Source: Salegentibacter sp.
Lineage (GTDB): Bacteria; Bacteroidota; Bacteroidia; Flavobacteriales; Flavobacteriaceae
Reading direction: 5' to 3'
Assembly: GCA_024635795.1 (NCBI GenBank)
Contig: JAGXIH010000017.1
Location: forward strand, 124,001 to 188,000
Length of the DNA: 64,000 bases
Shown: positions 5,415-19,262 of the stretch, one piece after another
How the letters are laid out: the number at the start of each line of letters is the position of its first letter
How positions within the stretch are numbered: the first letter of the stretch is position 1
The notes under the pieces: generated by a model
Seen by the model: only the letters and a program-made list of their open reading frames with translations
Databases searched by the model: none
Told to the model about the DNA's origin: nothing
Position numbers and translations under genes: made by a program

Positions 5415-6386
5415 TTACATATCCAGTAAATAAGCAAATATCAAAGGCGCTACAATGGTAGCATCACTTTCAATAATATGTTTTGGCGTGTCTATATCCA
5501 GTTTCCCCCAGGTGATCTTTTCATTAGGCACAGCTCCGGAATAAGATCCGTAACTGGTTGTAGAATCGGAGATCTGGCAGAAATAACTCCAGAAAGGAGT
5601 ATCTGTTCTTTCCATATCCTGGTACAACATTGGCACCACGCAAATAGGGAAATCACCAGCTATCCCTCCTCCTATCTGGAAGAAACCGATTCCGCCTTTG
5701 GAATTACCGGTATACCAATCGGCAAGGAATGTCATATATTCAATGCCTGATTTCATCGTGCTGGCCTTGAGTTCTCCTTTCAACACATAGGAAGCAAAAA
5801 TATTCCCCAAGGTGCTGTCTTCCCAACCGGGAACCACCATTGGCAAATTCTTCTCGGCAGCGGCATACATCCAGGAATCTTTGATATCGATCTCATAATG
5901 CTCTTCCAAAGCCCCGGAAAGCAATAATTTATATAAAAATTCGTGCGGGAAGTAGCGCTCACCTTTTTCTTCAGCATCTTTCCAAATCTTCACGATCCTG
6001 TGCTGAATTCTTCTGAAAGCTTCTTCTTCAGGGATACAGGTATCGGTAACCCGGTTAAGGCCTTTTTCCAACAGACCCCACTCTTCTTGCGGAGTAAGAT
6101 CACGGTAATTAGGTACGCGCTTGTAATGTGAATGCGCTACGAGATTCATCACATCTTCTTCAAGGTTGGCCCCGGTACAGGAAACTATATGTACCTTATC
6201 CTGCCTGATCATCTCGGCGAAAATTTTACCAATCTCGGCGGTACTCATCGCACCGGCGAGAGAAACCAGCATTTTTGAACCACCCTGCAGCTGCTTTTCA
6301 TAATCTTTTGCAGCATCTACCAAAGCGGCAGCGTTAAAGTGTAAATAATATTTTTCTATGAATTGCGAAATCGCTCCTTTACTCAT
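5415..6386 (-). CDS. Deoxyhypusine synthase-like protein, probable homospermidine/polyamine synthase
   Basis: 323 residues of the deoxyhypusine synthase family. Visible family motifs are SLAGAMSTAEIG, SCTGANLEEDVMNL, WEDSTLGN, the glycine-rich GGIGFFQIGGGIAGDF, and ITWGKLD, whose lysine (K295) matches the DHS catalytic lysine that forms the imine with the aminobutyl group. Bacteria lack eIF5A, so the hypusine substrate is absent. Plant homospermidine synthases evolved from DHS, and flavobacteria are known to contain homospermidine, so aminobutyl transfer to a polyamine is the likely reaction. The gene overlaps the agmatinase gene by 8 nt (ATGAGTAA), supporting one pathway. The exact acceptor (putrescine, agmatine or other) is inferred. 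Confidence 0.8.
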   Translation of the reverse strand: MSKGAISQFIEKYYLHFNAAALVDAAKDYEKQLQGGSKMLVSLAGAMSTAEIGKIFAEMIRQDKVHIVSCTGANLEEDVMNLVAHSHYKRVPNYRDLTPQEEWGLLEKGLNRVTDTCIPEEEAFRRIQHRIVKIWKDAEEKGERYFPHEFLYKLLLSGALEEHYEIDIKDSWMYAAAEKNLPMVVPGWEDSTLGNIFASYVLKGELKASTMKSGIEYMTFLADWYTGNSKGGIGFFQIGGGIAGDFPICVVPMLYQDMERTDTPFWSYFCQISDSTTSYGSYSGAVPNEKITWGKLDIDTPKHIIESDATIVAPLIFAYLLDM

Positions 6387-7254
6387 CTTCGTCTTCGTGG
6401 TTATGATTTAAATATTTGAATTTGTAGCTTAACATCTTATAGTAAAGTTTTGCCGCAAGAAAATCAGATGATTTTTCGTTTTCATTCGGGCAAAGTTCTA
6501 CGATGTCAAAACCTACTACATTTTTCTTTTTGAACATCAACTTAAGAAATTCCAAGGTCTCATACCAGAAAAGTCCGCCCGGCTCAGGGGTTCCTGTAGA
6601 AGGCATAATTGAAGGATCAAGAGCATCCAGATCTATAGTGATGAAAACATTTGGGGTCATTTGTCCAATAGCGTCATCCATCCAGTCTTCGTAAAGATCG
6701 TGTGCAAAATACACCTGGTTCTCGTCCATATGCTCTACTTCTGAAACATCCATTGAACGAATTCCTACCTGTACCAGGTTTGTCTTTTTACTGGCCTCAT
6801 GTACCGCACAGGCATGATTACAGGATGAACCTTCATATTCCGGTCTAAGATCGGCGTGAGCATCGATTTGCACTACAGAAAGATCTGCAAAACTTTCATT
6901 AAAAGCTCGTATAGTTCCAATTGAAACCGAATGCTCTCCTCCGAAAATGGTTACAAATTTCTCCTGTTTGATATAATTCTTTACAGTCTTGTGAACTGCT
7001 TCAACCATCTTTTCGGGAGAATAATTTTCGGTAACAGGAGGAGCTAAATAAATTCCCTTTTTGTAAACCTCGCTTCGTGTTTCAATGTCATAAAGCTCCA
7101 TGTTTTCTGAAGCTTCTAAAAAAGCTTCCGGACCTTTATCTGCGCCTTTTTGCCAGGAACTTGTTCCATCGTAAGGAACAGGAATTAATACCACTTTAGC
7201 ATCGTCTATGCGAGAATACTTATCTGGTATCCCGGCGTAATTCTTTTTGTTCAT
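6379..7254 (-). CDS. speB: Agmatinase / arginase-family ureohydrolase
   Basis: 291-residue ureohydrolase. The binuclear manganese site is intact: GGEHSV (about residue 100), DAHADLR (about 131-137) and DLDALDP (about 209-215), with the Cys-Asn-His segment SCNHACAVHE between the first two groups. Agmatinase hydrolyses agmatine to putrescine and urea. It sits between arginine decarboxylase (48 nt upstream) and the DHS-like gene (8-nt overlap), which favours agmatinase over arginase or formimidoylglutamase. Arginine would give agmatine, then putrescine, then a larger polyamine. Confidence 0.88.
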   Translation of the reverse strand: MNKKNYAGIPDKYSRIDDAKVVLIPVPYDGTSSWQKGADKGPEAFLEASENMELYDIETRSEVYKKGIYLAPPVTENYSPEKMVEAVHKTVKNYIKQEKFVTIFGGEHSVSIGTIRAFNESFADLSVVQIDAHADLRPEYEGSSCNHACAVHEASKKTNLVQVGIRSMDVSEVEHMDENQVYFAHDLYEDWMDDAIGQMTPNVFITIDLDALDPSIMPSTGTPEPGGLFWYETLEFLKLMFKKKNVVGFDIVELCPNENEKSSDFLAAKLYYKMLSYKFKYLNHNHEDEDE

Positions 7255-7302
7255 TTTAAAACTTGATTGAATAAGAGTTAGTTGTATAAAGTTATAAAAA
7301 TT

Positions 7303-8706
7303 TTAGTTGTCATTGTTATAGCCAAGAATTTTCAACATATCTTCTGCATTCTGCTGTTCGCTGAACAATTCGGTCGTGATATTTCCATTTTCATCTTTAT
7401 CAATGAGGATATGTTTGGGTTGAGGAATCAGGCAGTGATGCAAGCCACCAAAACCTCCAATGGTCTCCTGGTAAGCCCCGGTGTTGAAAAACCCGATATA
7501 GAGCGGTTTATCCTTTTTATACTTTGGAAGATAGATCGCGTTCACGTTTTGCTCTGAGTTGTAATAATCGTCACTATCGCATGTTAATCCACCCAACAAA
7601 ACTCTTTCATATTCATCGTTCCATCGGTTTACGGCCAGCATAACGAACTTCTTGCTTATAGCCCAGGTATCGGGCAGGGTGGTGATGAAAGAAGAATTGA
7701 TCATATTCCACTTTTCCCTGTCGTTTTGTTGTTTCTGGTAAAGGATCTCATAGATCGCGCCACCACTTTCACCCACGGTGAAACTTCCAAATTCAGTAAA
7801 AATATTTGGCACTTCTACTTCCGCGTCATCACAGACCAACTTTATCTGGTTGATGATCTCATCTACCATATACTCATAATCATATTCAAAATGCAGGGAA
7901 TTTTTTACCGGGAAACCGCCACCAATATTAAGACTATCCAAAGTTGGACATACCTTTTTTAGGGCTATATATACTTTTAAACACTTAATCAATTCGTTCC
8001 AGTAATAGGCAGTATCACGAATTCCGGTGTTGATGAAGAAATGCAACATCTTCAGCTCTACCTGCTTGTTTTCCTTGATTTTCCGGTTATAAAAAGGTAC
8101 AATATTTTTATAACCAATCCCTAACCTTGAAGTATAGAATTCAAATTTAGGCTCCTCTTCCGAAGCTATTCTAATCCCTATTGGATATTTCCCTTCTATA
8201 CTTTCAGACAAAAGATCGATTTCCTCGTAGTTATCTATAATGGGGATACAGTTCCTATGTCCATTATTAAGCAAACGGGCGATATTCTCTACGTATTGAT
8301 CACGTTTAAAGCCGTTGCAAAGCACGTAGGTATCATCGGTGATTTTCCCTTTTGCCTTTAGATTCTCAACAATATCGATATCAAAGGCCGAGGAAGTCTC
8401 TATATGGATATCATTTTTTAAAGCTTCATTCAAGACATGCTCAAAATGGGAACTTTTGGTGCAGTAACAATAATTATAGGACCCCTTATAATTATGTTTC
8501 TCCATAGCGCCGGCAAACCATTTTTTAGCTCTTTGGATATTGTCAGAAATTTTTGGCAGGTAATTAAATTTAAGGGGAGCGCCATATTTTTGCACAAGTT
8601 CCATAAGGTCAATTCCGTGAAACTTTAGTTCGTTGTCGTCCAGAGTAAATTCTTCCTGAGGAAAATAGTAGGTCTGGTCTATTAAATCGCTGTATTTGGT
8701 ATTCAA
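7303..8706 (-). CDS. speA: Biosynthetic arginine decarboxylase, short form
   Basis: 467-residue alanine-racemase-fold, PLP-dependent decarboxylase. It shows the PLP-lysine segment CYCTKSSHF (about residue 82), the phosphate-binding glycine loop IGGGFPV and the C-terminal active-site cysteine region GGLTCDSDDYY. It is clearly shorter than the E. coli SpeA of about 658 residues. The reading frame begins with TTG at 8704-8706 (NTKYSDLIDQ follows); an in-frame stop lies four codons upstream and the next Met is well inside the domain, so TTG is the likely start. A one-mismatch -7 box (TACCTTTA, complement of 8726-8733) lies about 20 nt upstream. It is the first gene of the polyamine operon. Confidence 0.88.
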   Translation of the reverse strand: MNTKYSDLIDQTYYFPQEEFTLDDNELKFHGIDLMELVQKYGAPLKFNYLPKISDNIQRAKKWFAGAMEKHNYKGSYNYCYCTKSSHFEHVLNEALKNDIHIETSSAFDIDIVENLKAKGKITDDTYVLCNGFKRDQYVENIARLLNNGHRNCIPIIDNYEEIDLLSESIEGKYPIGIRIASEEEPKFEFYTSRLGIGYKNIVPFYNRKIKENKQVELKMLHFFINTGIRDTAYYWNELIKCLKVYIALKKVCPTLDSLNIGGGFPVKNSLHFEYDYEYMVDEIINQIKLVCDDAEVEVPNIFTEFGSFTVGESGGAIYEILYQKQQNDREKWNMINSSFITTLPDTWAISKKFVMLAVNRWNDEYERVLLGGLTCDSDDYYNSEQNVNAIYLPKYKKDKPLYIGFFNTGAYQETIGGFGGLHHCLIPQPKHILIDKDENGNITTELFSEQQNAEDMLKILGYNNDN

Positions 8707-15764: not shown

Positions 15765-16289
15765 ATGGAAAAATGGTTTGAATTCTCTACCGAATCCTTG
15801 ATCGCTATCGCACTTACCGCTATAGGTATTTATTTAGCAGTTATAGTATTTACCCGCATAGCCGGTAAACGAAGTTTTTCAAAAATGTCCAGTTTTGACT
15901 TTGCAATGACGGTGGCCATTGGTTCTATTATGGCAACTACCATTCTCTCGGCATCAGTAAGTTTAACACAGGGAATAGCAGGTCTGGCAGCAGTATATAT
16001 TTTGCAAATGTCAGCGGCTATTTGCAGGCGATTTTCCTGGTTTCGAAAAGCGATAGATAATTCGCCATTACTACTTATGGAAGGCAAAAATATTCTTCAC
16101 GAGAACTTAAAGAAAGCCAGGGTTACCGAAGGTGATCTACGTTCAAAATTAAGGGAAGCTAATGTTTTGGATCTCTCCCAGCTGCGGGCGGTAATTTTTG
16201 AAACTACTGGAGATATTTCGGTATTGCATTCTTCAGACGAAAATCAGGAAATAGAAGATTGGCTTACAAAAGACGTACTAAATAATTAA
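15765..16289 (+). CDS. DUF421 (YetF/YcaP-like) membrane protein
   Basis: 174 residues: three N-terminal TM helices (about 12-90) and a soluble C-terminal YetF-type domain. Family motifs are RIAGKRSFSKMSSFDFAMTVAIGS near residues 31-54 and, at the C-terminus, LREANVLDLSQLRAVIFETTGDISVL. DUF421 proteins are widespread, linked to spore coat or envelope functions in Firmicutes but biochemically undefined. The stop codon is only 3 nt from the ATG of the SemiSWEET-like gene, so the two are co-transcribed. Confidence 0.9.
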   Translation: MEKWFEFSTESLIAIALTAIGIYLAVIVFTRIAGKRSFSKMSSFDFAMTVAIGSIMATTILSASVSLTQGIAGLAAVYILQMSAAICRRFSWFRKAIDNSPLLLMEGKNILHENLKKARVTEGDLRSKLREANVLDLSQLRAVIFETTGDISVLHSSDENQEIEDWLTKDVLNN

Positions 16290-16664: not shown

Positions 16665-17357
16665 ATGAATGCGGTAGCCCATAAAAATCTAAAAAAAAAG
16701 AATTCTGTAAAAACTACTTATAAGGATTTCAGGAACTTCATAATAGATGAAGACCATCCCTGTATAATGGCGCAAACGGTGTTCAGCATGGATAAAGCTG
16801 AAATTCACAACTATGAAAATTTCGGATCTCTTAAAACTGCAAAAGAGATCTTAAAGGATCTCAAACAATACCTGGAGAATTACGACTTCACCTCCAATGA
16901 GTTTTACACTTTTATAGCGGTTTTCCCGGAGCAAAAGAATTTTTCTGAAGCGAAATTTGAAGAATTGCTCTGGAAACAATTACAATGCATCCATCAGGAA
17001 GATGACAAGGATTGGGACCCCGAGGTGAGTAAAGATCCGGAAAGTAAAAACTTCAGCTTTAGTATAGCCGGGAAATCATTTTATATCGTGGGACTTCATC
17101 CCAATAGTAGTAGAAAAGCAAGACAAAGTCCATATCCTGCAATTACCTTTAACCTGCATTGGCAGTTTGAAAAACTCAGGGAAATGGGGGCTTATCAGAA
17201 CGTACGGGACAAAATTCGGGAACGCGACATAGACCTACAGGGCAGCACAAACCCTATGCTCGAAGATTTTGGTGAAAGCAGTGAGGCCAGGCAATATAGT
17301 GGACGAAAAGTTGGAGAAGAATGGAAATGTCCGTTTCTTCACGGGAAAAATAAATAA
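16665..17357 (+). CDS. GntA/YqcI-YcgG family heme-dependent N-hydroxylase-like protein
   Basis: 230 residues of the YqcI/YcgG family. Visible conserved segments are DHPCIMAQTVFSMDKAEIHNYENFGS (about 30-55, broken here for length), FYIVGLHPNSSRKARQSPYP (about 142-161), the TFNLHWQFEKLR helix, and the C-terminal RKVGEEWKCPF. Characterised relatives (guanitoxin GntA, D-cycloserine DcsA) are heme enzymes that N-hydroxylate the guanidine group of arginine derivatives. No signal peptide, so cytosolic. It begins a three-gene operon: its TAA is directly followed by the ATG of the PaiB-like gene, and the DUF1989 gene overlaps that. The substrate is likely arginine or a guanidino compound, by inference from the family. 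Confidence 0.8.
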   Translation: MNAVAHKNLKKKNSVKTTYKDFRNFIIDEDHPCIMAQTVFSMDKAEIHNYENFGSLKTAKEILKDLKQYLENYDFTSNEFYTFIAVFPEQKNFSEAKFEELLWKQLQCIHQEDDKDWDPEVSKDPESKNFSFSIAGKSFYIVGLHPNSSRKARQSPYPAITFNLHWQFEKLREMGAYQNVRDKIRERDIDLQGSTNPMLEDFGESSEARQYSGRKVGEEWKCPFLHGKNK

Positions 17358-17981
17358 ATGTACCAGCCGAAAAAATACCAGAAGAAAGACTCCAACTACA
17401 TTTATAAATTTATACAGCAAAACCCATTCGCTACCCTTGTTCTTAATGGAGAACGATTTCTTGCAACTCATATTCCGGTTTTGGTGGAAGGTGATGCAGA
17501 AGATTTTAAACTCTACGGCCATATTGCCAACCATAACGAACAATTACAGCATCTTAAAGACGGTGCCGAAGTCTTACTGATCTTTCAGGGGGCTCACGGG
17601 TATGTTTCCTCATCCTGGTACAAGAAAAAGGATATTAGTACCTGGGATTATTCAGCGGTTCACGTGAATGCAAGGATTAGGATTCAATCTACTGAAGAGT
17701 TGGAACAGTCACTGGTTAACCTGGTTCATAAATTCGAGAAGGATCAGGAAAAACCCTTATACTATAAAGATATTCCTTCAGAAATAATTTCAGACCACCT
17801 CCCGCATATTACCGGTTTTTGGTGTGAACCTTTTAAAATTGAAGGGATAGCCAAACTCCATCAGGGTTACGATTCAGAAGACCTTAACCGAATTAGCAAA
17901 AAACTACAAAAACGGGCCGACCCTATGGATCCGGTTTTGGAAAAAAATATCAGATCTGAAAATGATACAAAAGATAGATAA
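17358..17981 (+). CDS. PaiB-like FMN-binding split-barrel protein
   Basis: 207 residues of the PaiB (FMN-binding negative transcriptional regulator) family, with a flavin split-barrel fold. Motifs: MYQPKKYQKKD at the N-terminus, NPFATLVLNGERFLATHIPV, YGHIANHNEQ, the FMN-contact run GAHGYVSSSWYKKKDISTWDY, and the C-terminal EGIAKLHQG (usual form K-L-S-Q). The family name comes from Bacillus PaiB, but many members probably act as flavin oxidoreductases. Sitting with no gap after a heme N-hydroxylase-like gene and overlapping a DUF1989 gene by 20 nt, a role as redox partner or enzyme in the same pathway is more attractive than a repressor; that is inference. Confidence 0.85.
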   Translation: MYQPKKYQKKDSNYIYKFIQQNPFATLVLNGERFLATHIPVLVEGDAEDFKLYGHIANHNEQLQHLKDGAEVLLIFQGAHGYVSSSWYKKKDISTWDYSAVHVNARIRIQSTEELEQSLVNLVHKFEKDQEKPLYYKDIPSEIISDHLPHITGFWCEPFKIEGIAKLHQGYDSEDLNRISKKLQKRADPMDPVLEKNIRSENDTKDR

Positions 17982-18543
17982 ACAAAGTGGAGCAGCCTTT
18001 ACCCTGAAAAAGGGGCAGAAATTAAAGGTGATCAGCCCGGAAGCCGAACAGGTAAGCGATATGGTATTGTTTAATGCTCACGACATCCGGGAGAAGTTAT
18101 CATCAGGGAAAACCCTTGATTTCGAGGAGACTATCCTTATTACAAAAGGAAATTTTTTATGGAGTAACCGAAGTCAAAAATTGATGGGAATCCTGGAAGA
18201 CACCAATGGGCGCAATGATTTCTTGCTGGCACCTTGTAGTCCGGAGACCTTTGAGATAATGTATGATTATAAGGGTTACCACCCCAGTTGTTTTGAAAAT
18301 CTCTACAGCAACCTGGAGGAATTTGGCATCGGGCCAGATGATGTCCCCACGGCCTTCAATATCTTTATGAATGTGCAATTTGACAACGAAGGAAACTTAA
18401 GTGTAGACCCTCCGCTTAATAAAGCAGGGGATTATTTACTTTTTGAAGCTAAAACAGATCTTATCGTTGGCCTCACCGCCTGCTCTGCGGAAGACAGCAA
18501 TAATGGCAGCTTCAAACCTATTCATTTTGAGATTATCGATTAA
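17962..18543 (+). CDS. DUF1989 (urea carboxylase-associated/carboxyguanidine deiminase-like) protein
   Basis: 193 residues of the DUF1989 family. Recognisable parts are EQVSDMVLFNAHD, the CSPETFEIMYDY and YHPSCFENL segments with conserved Cys and His, FNIFMNVQFDNEGNL with DPPLNKAGDYLLFEAKTDL, and the LTACSAEDSN end. Known DUF1989 proteins include the two subunits of carboxyguanidine deiminase in guanidine degradation. No urea carboxylase or allophanate hydrolase gene is present here, so a standard guanidine carboxylase pathway is not encoded locally. It overlaps the PaiB-like gene by 20 nt and meets terC tail-to-tail (4-nt overlap). It probably hydrolyses a guanidine or hydroxyguanidine product of the first enzyme (inference). 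Confidence 0.8.
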   Translation: MIQKIDKQSGAAFTLKKGQKLKVISPEAEQVSDMVLFNAHDIREKLSSGKTLDFEETILITKGNFLWSNRSQKLMGILEDTNGRNDFLLAPCSPETFEIMYDYKGYHPSCFENLYSNLEEFGIGPDDVPTAFNIFMNVQFDNEGNLSVDPPLNKAGDYLLFEAKTDLIVGLTACSAEDSNNGSFKPIHFEIID

Positions 18544-19262
18544 GCCTCTACGGGTTCCTTCTTTTTCTTTCTGAAGCGCATATTGAGCATTTCTATAGCC
18601 AGAGAAAAGAAAACAGAGAAGTAGATATATCCCTTAGGCACATGATAGTGCAATCCTTCAACGAGCAACATCACCCCAATAAGGATCAAAAATGACAGTG
18701 CGAGAATTTGAATGGTTGGATGATTATTTACAAACTCACTCACCACTTTGGCAAATACCATCATCACGATTATGGCGATGGTTATAGCAATAATCATTAG
18801 AAGAACAACATCGGTTAATCCAATGGCGGTTAAAATAGAATCGAAAGAAAAAACAAGGTCCAACAATACTATTTGTACAATAGCATAACCAAAGGAATTT
18901 ACACTTTTCACCTTTGTGGTTTCCTCGTGGCCTTCTACTTTTTCATGTATTTCCAGGGTGCTCTTCACCAGCAGAAAAATTCCTCCGGCTACCAGGATAA
19001 TGTCTTTCCAGCTCAATTCGAAATCCATGTATTCCAGCACCGGCTCTGTTAGGCCAATGATCCAGGTAATACTTAGCAGTAGTAATATCCGCATGATAAG
19101 CGCGATTGAAAGCCCACCAATTCTCGCTTTCTTTTGCTGATCTTTAGGCAATCTACCCGCAACAATTGATATAAAAATAATGTTATCTATACCCAGCACG
19201 ATTTCCATAAAAGTAAGAGTGAGTAAAGCGATCCAGGTATCTGGCTGAAGAAAAATTTCCAT
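18540..19262 (-). CDS. terC: TerC family integral membrane protein
   Basis: 240 residues with seven or so TM helices. The TerC signatures are LTFMEIVLGIDNIIFISI (first acidic pair) and VLLDLVFSFDSILTAIGL (second), the charged membrane residues proposed to bind metal. TerC/Alx-type proteins are linked to manganese export, pH response and tellurite resistance. There are no other ter genes here, so a general metal homeostasis role is more likely. It is transcribed alone, against the DUF1989 gene. Confidence 0.92.
   Translation of the reverse strand: MEIFLQPDTWIALLTLTFMEIVLGIDNIIFISIVAGRLPKDQQKKARIGGLSIALIMRILLLLSITWIIGLTEPVLEYMDFELSWKDIILVAGGIFLLVKSTLEIHEKVEGHEETTKVKSVNSFGYAIVQIVLLDLVFSFDSILTAIGLTDVVLLMIIAITIAIIVMMVFAKVVSEFVNNHPTIQILALSFLILIGVMLLVEGLHYHVPKGYIYFSVFFSLAIEMLNMRFRKKKKEPVEA

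Follow-up and report, generated by a model that had tools for sequence, protein, structure and literature searches.

Relationship to described guanidine hydroxylases and DUF1989 enzymes

The functionally characterised members of the YqcI/YcgG family are described as guanidine hydroxylases (PMC12866846), and both terminal and double N-hydroxylation are known among these enzymes (PMC11177257; PMC12866846). The DUF1989 family includes the carboxyguanidine deiminase, which works with two subunits (PMC12508155), and the trimethylamine N-oxide (TMAO) demethylase, whose DUF1989 domain binds zinc through C263, C279 and C343 (PMC12560246). Genes of these two families, with a PaiB-type gene between them, form an operon in Salegentibacter sp. 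(Flavobacteriaceae). The operon lies in a stretch of 64,000 nucleotides (nt) of contig JAGXIH010000017.1 (assembly GCA_024635795.1, positions 124,001 to 188,000), hereafter the window. All three families were already known; new here are the YqcI–DUF1989 pair as a widespread module and a PaiB subfamily bound to the operon. The pair is the conserved core, and its association is not due to chance. The two predicted heme enzymes and the predicted zinc enzyme of the operon are likely to oxidise a small nitrogen-rich molecule and to cleave it afterwards.

The three open reading frames (ORFs) all start with ATG and lie on the plus strand (Table 1). The second ATG directly follows the first stop codon (0 nt between), and the second and third ORFs share 20 nt. 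These ORFs and junctions agree with the original prediction made from the DNA alone, and its three family names were also confirmed, as each Pfam score is far above the cut-off. The assembly holding the window has 1.98 Mb and is 61.6% complete. The closest named relative among the matches listed is Salegentibacter flavus (YqcI 90% identical).

The YqcI protein shares the fold and the heme-ligand cysteine of AglA (alignment and structure comparison), and it scored 330 bits with the NCBIfam GntA model NF041366 (cut-off 145). Profile, fold and cysteine thus support the predicted assignment as a YqcI/YcgG heme N-hydroxylase. The gene contexts of the described relatives are different. AglA (argolaphos; PDB 9ub3, 9ubb) belongs to a natural-product cluster with its own reductase, whereas the operon here is a bare one of two or three genes. 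ChmN, the arginine N-oxygenase of chalkophomycin, is of the same family and hydroxylates first an internal and then a terminal nitrogen (PMC11177257); its partner is an SznF-like protein in a nonribosomal peptide synthetase cluster, whereas the partner here is DUF1989. GntA shares the NCBIfam label, and plasmid relatives are so named in public records; however, the operon is flanked by YetF and TerC, the recurrent neighbours are of other families, and nothing among these neighbours suggests a guanitoxin pathway, whose other genes were not searched by name. Public plasmid records (e.g. loci L152, L154 and L155) name the members of the pair gntA and ‘urea carboxylase-associated’ or DUF1989 protein, and both names probably mislead.

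The DUF1989 protein of the window matches DUF1989 structures and the TMAO demethylase (E 9e-14). Asp33, Cys92, His107, Cys110, Cys174 and Asp178 are invariant in 27 alignment rows, and the three cysteines correspond, when mapped by hand on the alignments, to the zinc cysteines C263, C279 and C343 of the TMAO demethylase. The active-site His and Asp of relatives are retained as well. The TMAO demethylase acts on an N-O compound and has about 790 amino acids (aa) with a GcvT domain, whereas the window protein has 193 aa, no GcvT domain and a single Pfam family (78.3 bits with the NCBIfam TMAO demethylase model, cut-off 1100). With the carboxyguanidine deiminase CgdAB and the urea-amidolyase-associated proteins UAAP1 and UAAP2 it has the domain and the conserved metal residues in common; the scores and the single-gene state differ. 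The UAAP2 score was 103.4 bits (far below the cut-off of 284.7) and the UAAP1 score 75.3 (cut-off 205.95), and one DUF1989 match per genome was found in 20 of 20 genomes, among them the incomplete assembly of the window. The protein is therefore not the known two-subunit carboxyguanidine deiminase, and the single DUF1989 gene also supports the earlier exclusion of a guanidine-carboxylase route.

Conservation of the YqcI–DUF1989 pair

Among 149 genomes sampled from the family of the window, YqcI and DUF1989 each occur in 20 and both in 19; one genome has YqcI alone and one DUF1989 alone (Fisher p 8e-22, with the genomes treated as independent though related). The two genes are adjacent in all 19 double-positive genomes, five of which have PaiB between them. 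A Bacteroidota-wide sample of 395 genomes contained YqcI in nine, each time beside DUF1989; two of these nine (the window's own genome and G125) were already counted in the family sample. Eighty named YqcI loci, the best 80 of 574 relatives, were then compared, 14 of which are shorter than 16.5 kb. In 76 loci (all except L052, L053, L055 and L088), DUF1989 follows downstream of YqcI on the same strand, at most 3.2 kb away; 30 named genera and four lineages without a name are represented among them. Of the 80 loci, 25 have PaiB between the two genes, and four (L030, L043, L062 and L065) have it elsewhere within 8 kb. The trio predicted originally does recur outside this genome; however, the pair is wider, and the trio as basic or ancient unit was rejected. 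Two second copies of YqcI without DUF1989 were also seen, L022 (genome G111) and L053 (the metagenome-assembled genome of L044), and both genomes also carry the pair.

The spacing of the genes is narrow, although individual gaps may be off, as start codons of the relatives were chosen by expected length. Without PaiB, the YqcI–DUF1989 gap has a median of 4 nt (44 loci); it is at most 30 nt in 33 loci, and a 4-nt overlap occurs in 13. Where PaiB stands in the middle (24 loci), 0–42 nt separate it from YqcI; in 20 of these loci the distance between PaiB and DUF1989 runs from an overlap of 20 nt to a gap of 15 nt. LigD pieces sit between PaiB and DUF1989 in four loci of the Christiangramia group. 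In L036, L040 and L041 (about 9.3–11.8 kb) the separate LigD ORFs encode the 3'-phosphoesterase, ligase and polymerase domains, and only the 3'-phosphoesterase was seen in L045.

The pair is also carried by plasmids. YqcI matched 34 plasmid records, 17 at 35% identity or more and 17 more distant, and 14 were opened (12 and 2 of these, respectively). DUF1989 adjoins YqcI in nine of the 12 closer matches, from three phyla including Pseudomonadota and Deinococcota: Chryseobacterium, Hymenobacter, two Comamonadaceae, two Sphingomonas, Novosphingobium, Skermanella and Deinococcus. The DUF1989 frame of the Hymenobacter plasmid is unannotated, yet it matches the profile. The other three closer matches (Rahnella and two Streptomyces) and both distant ones (Priestia and Haladaptatus) have no DUF1989 beside YqcI. 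The conjugative plasmid of Rahnella carries a different YqcI cluster (L156:4962-10247), in which YqcI is followed by SDR, hypothetical, 2Fe-2S, LysE, PheT-like and MOSC genes. In a plasmid of Sphingomonas insulae, a gene of the nucleoside-deaminase family directly follows the pair (L190:4947-6801).

The trees of the two proteins resemble each other, with a family-wide mirror correlation of r 0.80 against 0.21 for the best of 500 permutations, species relatedness not being removed. L049, L058, L079 and L088 were dropped before this comparison (cut or split frames, or no DUF1989), and the trees were quick ones with many open forks. Both families are present in B. subtilis as well, where ycgG and ycgI presumably sit near each other. 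A literature search, with subscription journals mostly outside reach, found no paper naming both YqcI and DUF1989, and a search on ycgG, ycgI and ycgH turned up only E. coli papers. To the extent that gene order can show it, the originally predicted joint action of the genes is supported.

An operon-specific PaiB subfamily

PaiB, piperazate synthase and NohD entries make up the best 18 structure matches of the middle protein, and the titles of most of them mention heme; the closest structures are heme proteins, of three kinds that handle, or are named for, N-hydroxylamines. The fold of piperazate synthase matches, and its named His, Asn, Thr and Lys residues are all kept. Thr95 and Lys166 also align with Thr98 and Lys167 of NohD. 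All 29 operon-linked rows retain the heme His, as do 47 of the 48 others (the remaining one has a gap). The original prediction took this protein for a flavin mononucleotide (FMN) electron donor. That role was rejected as the likeliest one because the nearest relatives are heme-bound PaiB, piperazate synthases and an N-hydroxylamine dehydratase and the heme residues are kept; the protein probably binds heme instead. The positions of Tyr150 and Lys178 of piperazate synthase, mapped by hand, do not carry these residues in the linked rows and are mostly Ile/Leu/Val and Tyr/Phe, respectively. Tyr or Phe stands at the Lys178 position in 25 of the 29, and NohD has Leu.

Phylogenetic analysis of 77 PaiB sequences placed the 29 linked rows and one sequence from genome G100 in a single clade (support 99), which sits on a long stem. 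The split PaiB of L034 (two frames) was left out, and the L194 row is only 38% filled. Since the linked rows were found by their linkage, the real test is given by the 48 non-operon genes sampled from 96 matches in 94 genomes. None of the 38 from genomes without the pair fell inside the clade, and one of the 10 from pair genomes did, that of G100, where the pair is ~95 kb away. Ser94, His147 and His168 adjoin the catalytic residues and mark the clade; they occur in 29 of 29 linked rows and in 2, 1 and 1 of the 48 others, which include L196 of G100 in each case. The window protein thus has its own clade and its own marker residues, and differs in both from Bacillus PaiB (9vyc), NohD (9oqs series) and the piperazate synthases. 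The tree indicates that PaiB entered the operon as one dedicated subfamily.

The middle position of PaiB requires at least five changes on the YqcI tree. The five trio genomes in the sample yielded no PaiB gene besides that of the operon; nine pair genomes carry ordinary PaiB only, and no PaiB was found in three others (G080, G084 and G121). The operon PaiB is therefore a specialised addition and not a requirement. PaiB anywhere in the genome is only weakly tied to the pair (16/19 against 78/130, p 0.045).

Proposed pathway and competing explanations

The gene order, conservation, folds, cofactor and metal residues and PaiB subfamily are observations, from which we infer the reactions, their order, the substrate and the hydroxylated position of a small O2-dependent pathway that would dismantle or remodel a guanidino compound. 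First, the YqcI heme-thiolate enzyme would hydroxylate a guanidine nitrogen, with electrons from a reductase encoded elsewhere. Second, the DUF1989 zinc enzyme would hydrolyse the N-hydroxyguanidine at its central carbon; these two steps would be the core. Third, in one clade of Flavobacteriaceae, the PaiB heme protein would dehydrate the freed N-hydroxylamine (R-CH2-NH-OH -> R-CH=NH), the type of reaction that gave NohD its name, which would lead to an aldehyde. If the internal nitrogen is hydroxylated, as by ChmN with arginine, arginine would yield N5-hydroxyornithine and agmatine would yield N-hydroxyputrescine; N5-hydroxyornithine is the compound soaked into the NohD crystals. Of the known DUF1989 enzymes, the carboxyguanidine deiminase acts on a guanidine carbon and the TMAO demethylase on an N-oxide. 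A hydroxylamine would result if a guanidine hydroxylated on its internal nitrogen were hydrolysed; hydroxylase, hydrolase and dehydratase, in this order, would therefore make up the simplest chain in which every enzyme meets the type of substrate that its relatives meet.

This chain of N-hydroxylation, zinc-dependent hydrolysis and heme dehydration is the best model, held with well under even confidence. The broader claim must be called tentative, namely that a new oxidative pathway cutting arginine- or agmatine-like guanidino compounds, built from heme N-hydroxylase and DUF1989 hydrolase, occurs in at least three phyla in stress-gene neighbourhoods, with a PaiB heme dehydratase added in one flavobacterial clade. 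If it is true, DUF1989 would gain a third reaction type and PaiB a physiological role, and three poorly understood families would be tied to one substrate chain. The ‘guanitoxin N-hydroxylase GntA’ and the ‘urea carboxylase-associated protein’ would then belong to a single pathway, as yet without a name, that many ordinary bacteria possess, and both names would mislead. The model is readily testable, as none of the three proteins is large, all look soluble, and a red colour is expected of two.

Several points weigh against this model. The ordinary arginase or agmatinase route for arginine needs no oxygen. Step 3 seems not to be needed for the pair, since most pair genomes have no operon PaiB. 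Urease matched in four of the 149 family genomes at E 0.001, and only one match was above the cut-off (genuine); urea would thus be wasted, and its use by urease was rejected. The low UAAP scores of the DUF1989 protein count here too. The Bacillus PaiB binds heme and showed no N-N bond-forming activity (PMC13274692). No paper on NohD was found in the same literature search, so its activity rests on the titles of PDB entries. Finally, His165 of YqcI aligns with the gating Arg179 of AglA, so that the substrate may be something other than arginine, free or linked.

The competing explanations, all of them unlikely, depart from this model chiefly in what DUF1989 would cleave and in the nitrogen that would be hydroxylated. 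The first to consider is that a terminal guanidine nitrogen is hydroxylated and DUF1989 acts as a deiminase. Hydroxylamine (or hydroxyurea) would be freed, possibly as a nitroxyl or nitric oxide (NO)-type signal, and PaiB would handle the N-O product. The deiminase within DUF1989 (PMC12508155) and the terminal and double N-hydroxylation by YqcI enzymes (PMC11177257; PMC12866846) are in line with this, as are the abundant catalase, DUF892 and LigD genes around the loci. However, release of hydroxylamine would be costly for a cell, and the neighbour families present in at least six loci include no NO- or hydroxylamine-handling gene, although no targeted search was made.

The residue at position 165 could also mean that the substrate is not a guanidine, i.e. 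that this YqcI subfamily hydroxylates another amine or amidine whose product the downstream enzymes process. His stands there in 31 of 35 rows, whereas two distant unpaired members have the Arg of AglA. This is improbable, because a single residue does not define a substrate and the family members with an established function are regarded as hydroxylases of guanidines (PMC12866846).

Rather improbable, too, is a DUF1989 reaction like that of the TMAO demethylase, in which the N-O group introduced by YqcI would serve for the cleavage of a C-N bond, with release of an aldehyde and no hydrolysis of the guanidine carbon. This would explain why operon PaiB is missing from most pair genomes, and it fits the sequence match to the demethylase. 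His107 and Glu177 are counterparts of the proposed iron-site His and acidic residue (PMC12560246); however, that site is the paper's proposal from a predicted model, the residues were mapped by hand, and the UAAP2 score exceeds the demethylase score (103.4 against 78.3 bits).

A heme dehydratase acting directly on the internally N-hydroxylated guanidine, which would give guanidine for DUF1989 and an aldehyde, agrees with the dehydratase-type fold and key residues of the middle protein. It is very improbable, as each genome has one DUF1989, most pair loci have no PaiB inside, and Rfam gave no match at the gathering score, guanidine riboswitches included, in the window or 10 relatives (144 kb); control by such a riboswitch was rejected for this reason. 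An FMN-binding middle protein that reduces the YqcI heme, or serves as a regulator, is hardly credible in view of its heme-titled structure matches and kept heme His.

Genomic neighbourhood

Table 1. Position of the operon genes, predicted heme-ligand codons and neighbouring genes in the window
Feature	Position	Strand	Basis or remark
YqcI/YcgG-family heme N-hydroxylase, 230 aa, predicted thiolate heme ligand Cys33	16665..17357	+	Pfam YqcI_YcgG 221.3 bits (cut-off 27)
Cys33 codon, aligns with heme ligand Cys44 of AglA	16761..16763	+	Alignment; Cys in 35/35 rows; ligand role of Cys44 from PMC12866846
PaiB / piperazate-synthase-fold protein, 207 aa, probably heme-binding, operon-specific subfamily	17358..17981	+	Pfam FMN_bind_2 150.3 bits (cut-off 22.4)
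His55 codon, aligns with heme ligand His61 of SbPZS	17520..17522	+	Alignments; ligand role from PMC13274692
DUF1989 protein, 193 aa, predicted Zn site Cys92, Cys110, Cys174, plus Asp33, His107, Asp178	17962..18543	+	Pfam DUF1989 181.8 bits (cut-off 27)
YetF/DUF421 membrane protein, recurrent neighbour, not claimed as pathway member	15765..16289	+	Pfam
TerC, neighbour on the other side of the operon	18540-19262	-	Pfam
Agmatinase, arginase family	6379-7254	-	NCBIfam 236 bits (cut-off 174.3); about 9.4 kb from operon
Polyamine gene run: pyridoxal decarboxylase (speA-like), agmatinase, deoxyhypusine/homospermidine-synthase-like	5415-8706	-	Only agmatinase above NCBIfam cut-off; ~8 kb from operon

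The original prediction had seen no arginase nearby; the window does contain an agmatinase of this family (Table 1), and agmatine may therefore be available. The arginase family was useless as a discriminator of pair genomes, being present in 145 of 149.

Homologues of several families recur within 8 kb of the 80 loci: YetF (48), SemiSWEET (31), SDR (23), catalase (16), DUF892 (9), MgtC (6) and LigD polymerase (6). None of these families occurred in 20 control windows from seven pair genomes, at places chosen by the analyst. At least one of YetF, catalase, DUF892, LigD, SDR and MgtC is found in 62 of the 80 loci, and catalase, DUF892 or LigD in 24; owing to synteny among relatives, these counts are not independent. 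We take the recurrent families (catalase, DUF892, LigD and others) to be stress genes, and the neighbours give a weak indication that the operon serves in stress. A membrane-protein family of ~190 aa with no Pfam match is also found near the pair in 19 of the 80 loci (e.g. L064:13138-13719(-) and L062:6259-6816(+)).
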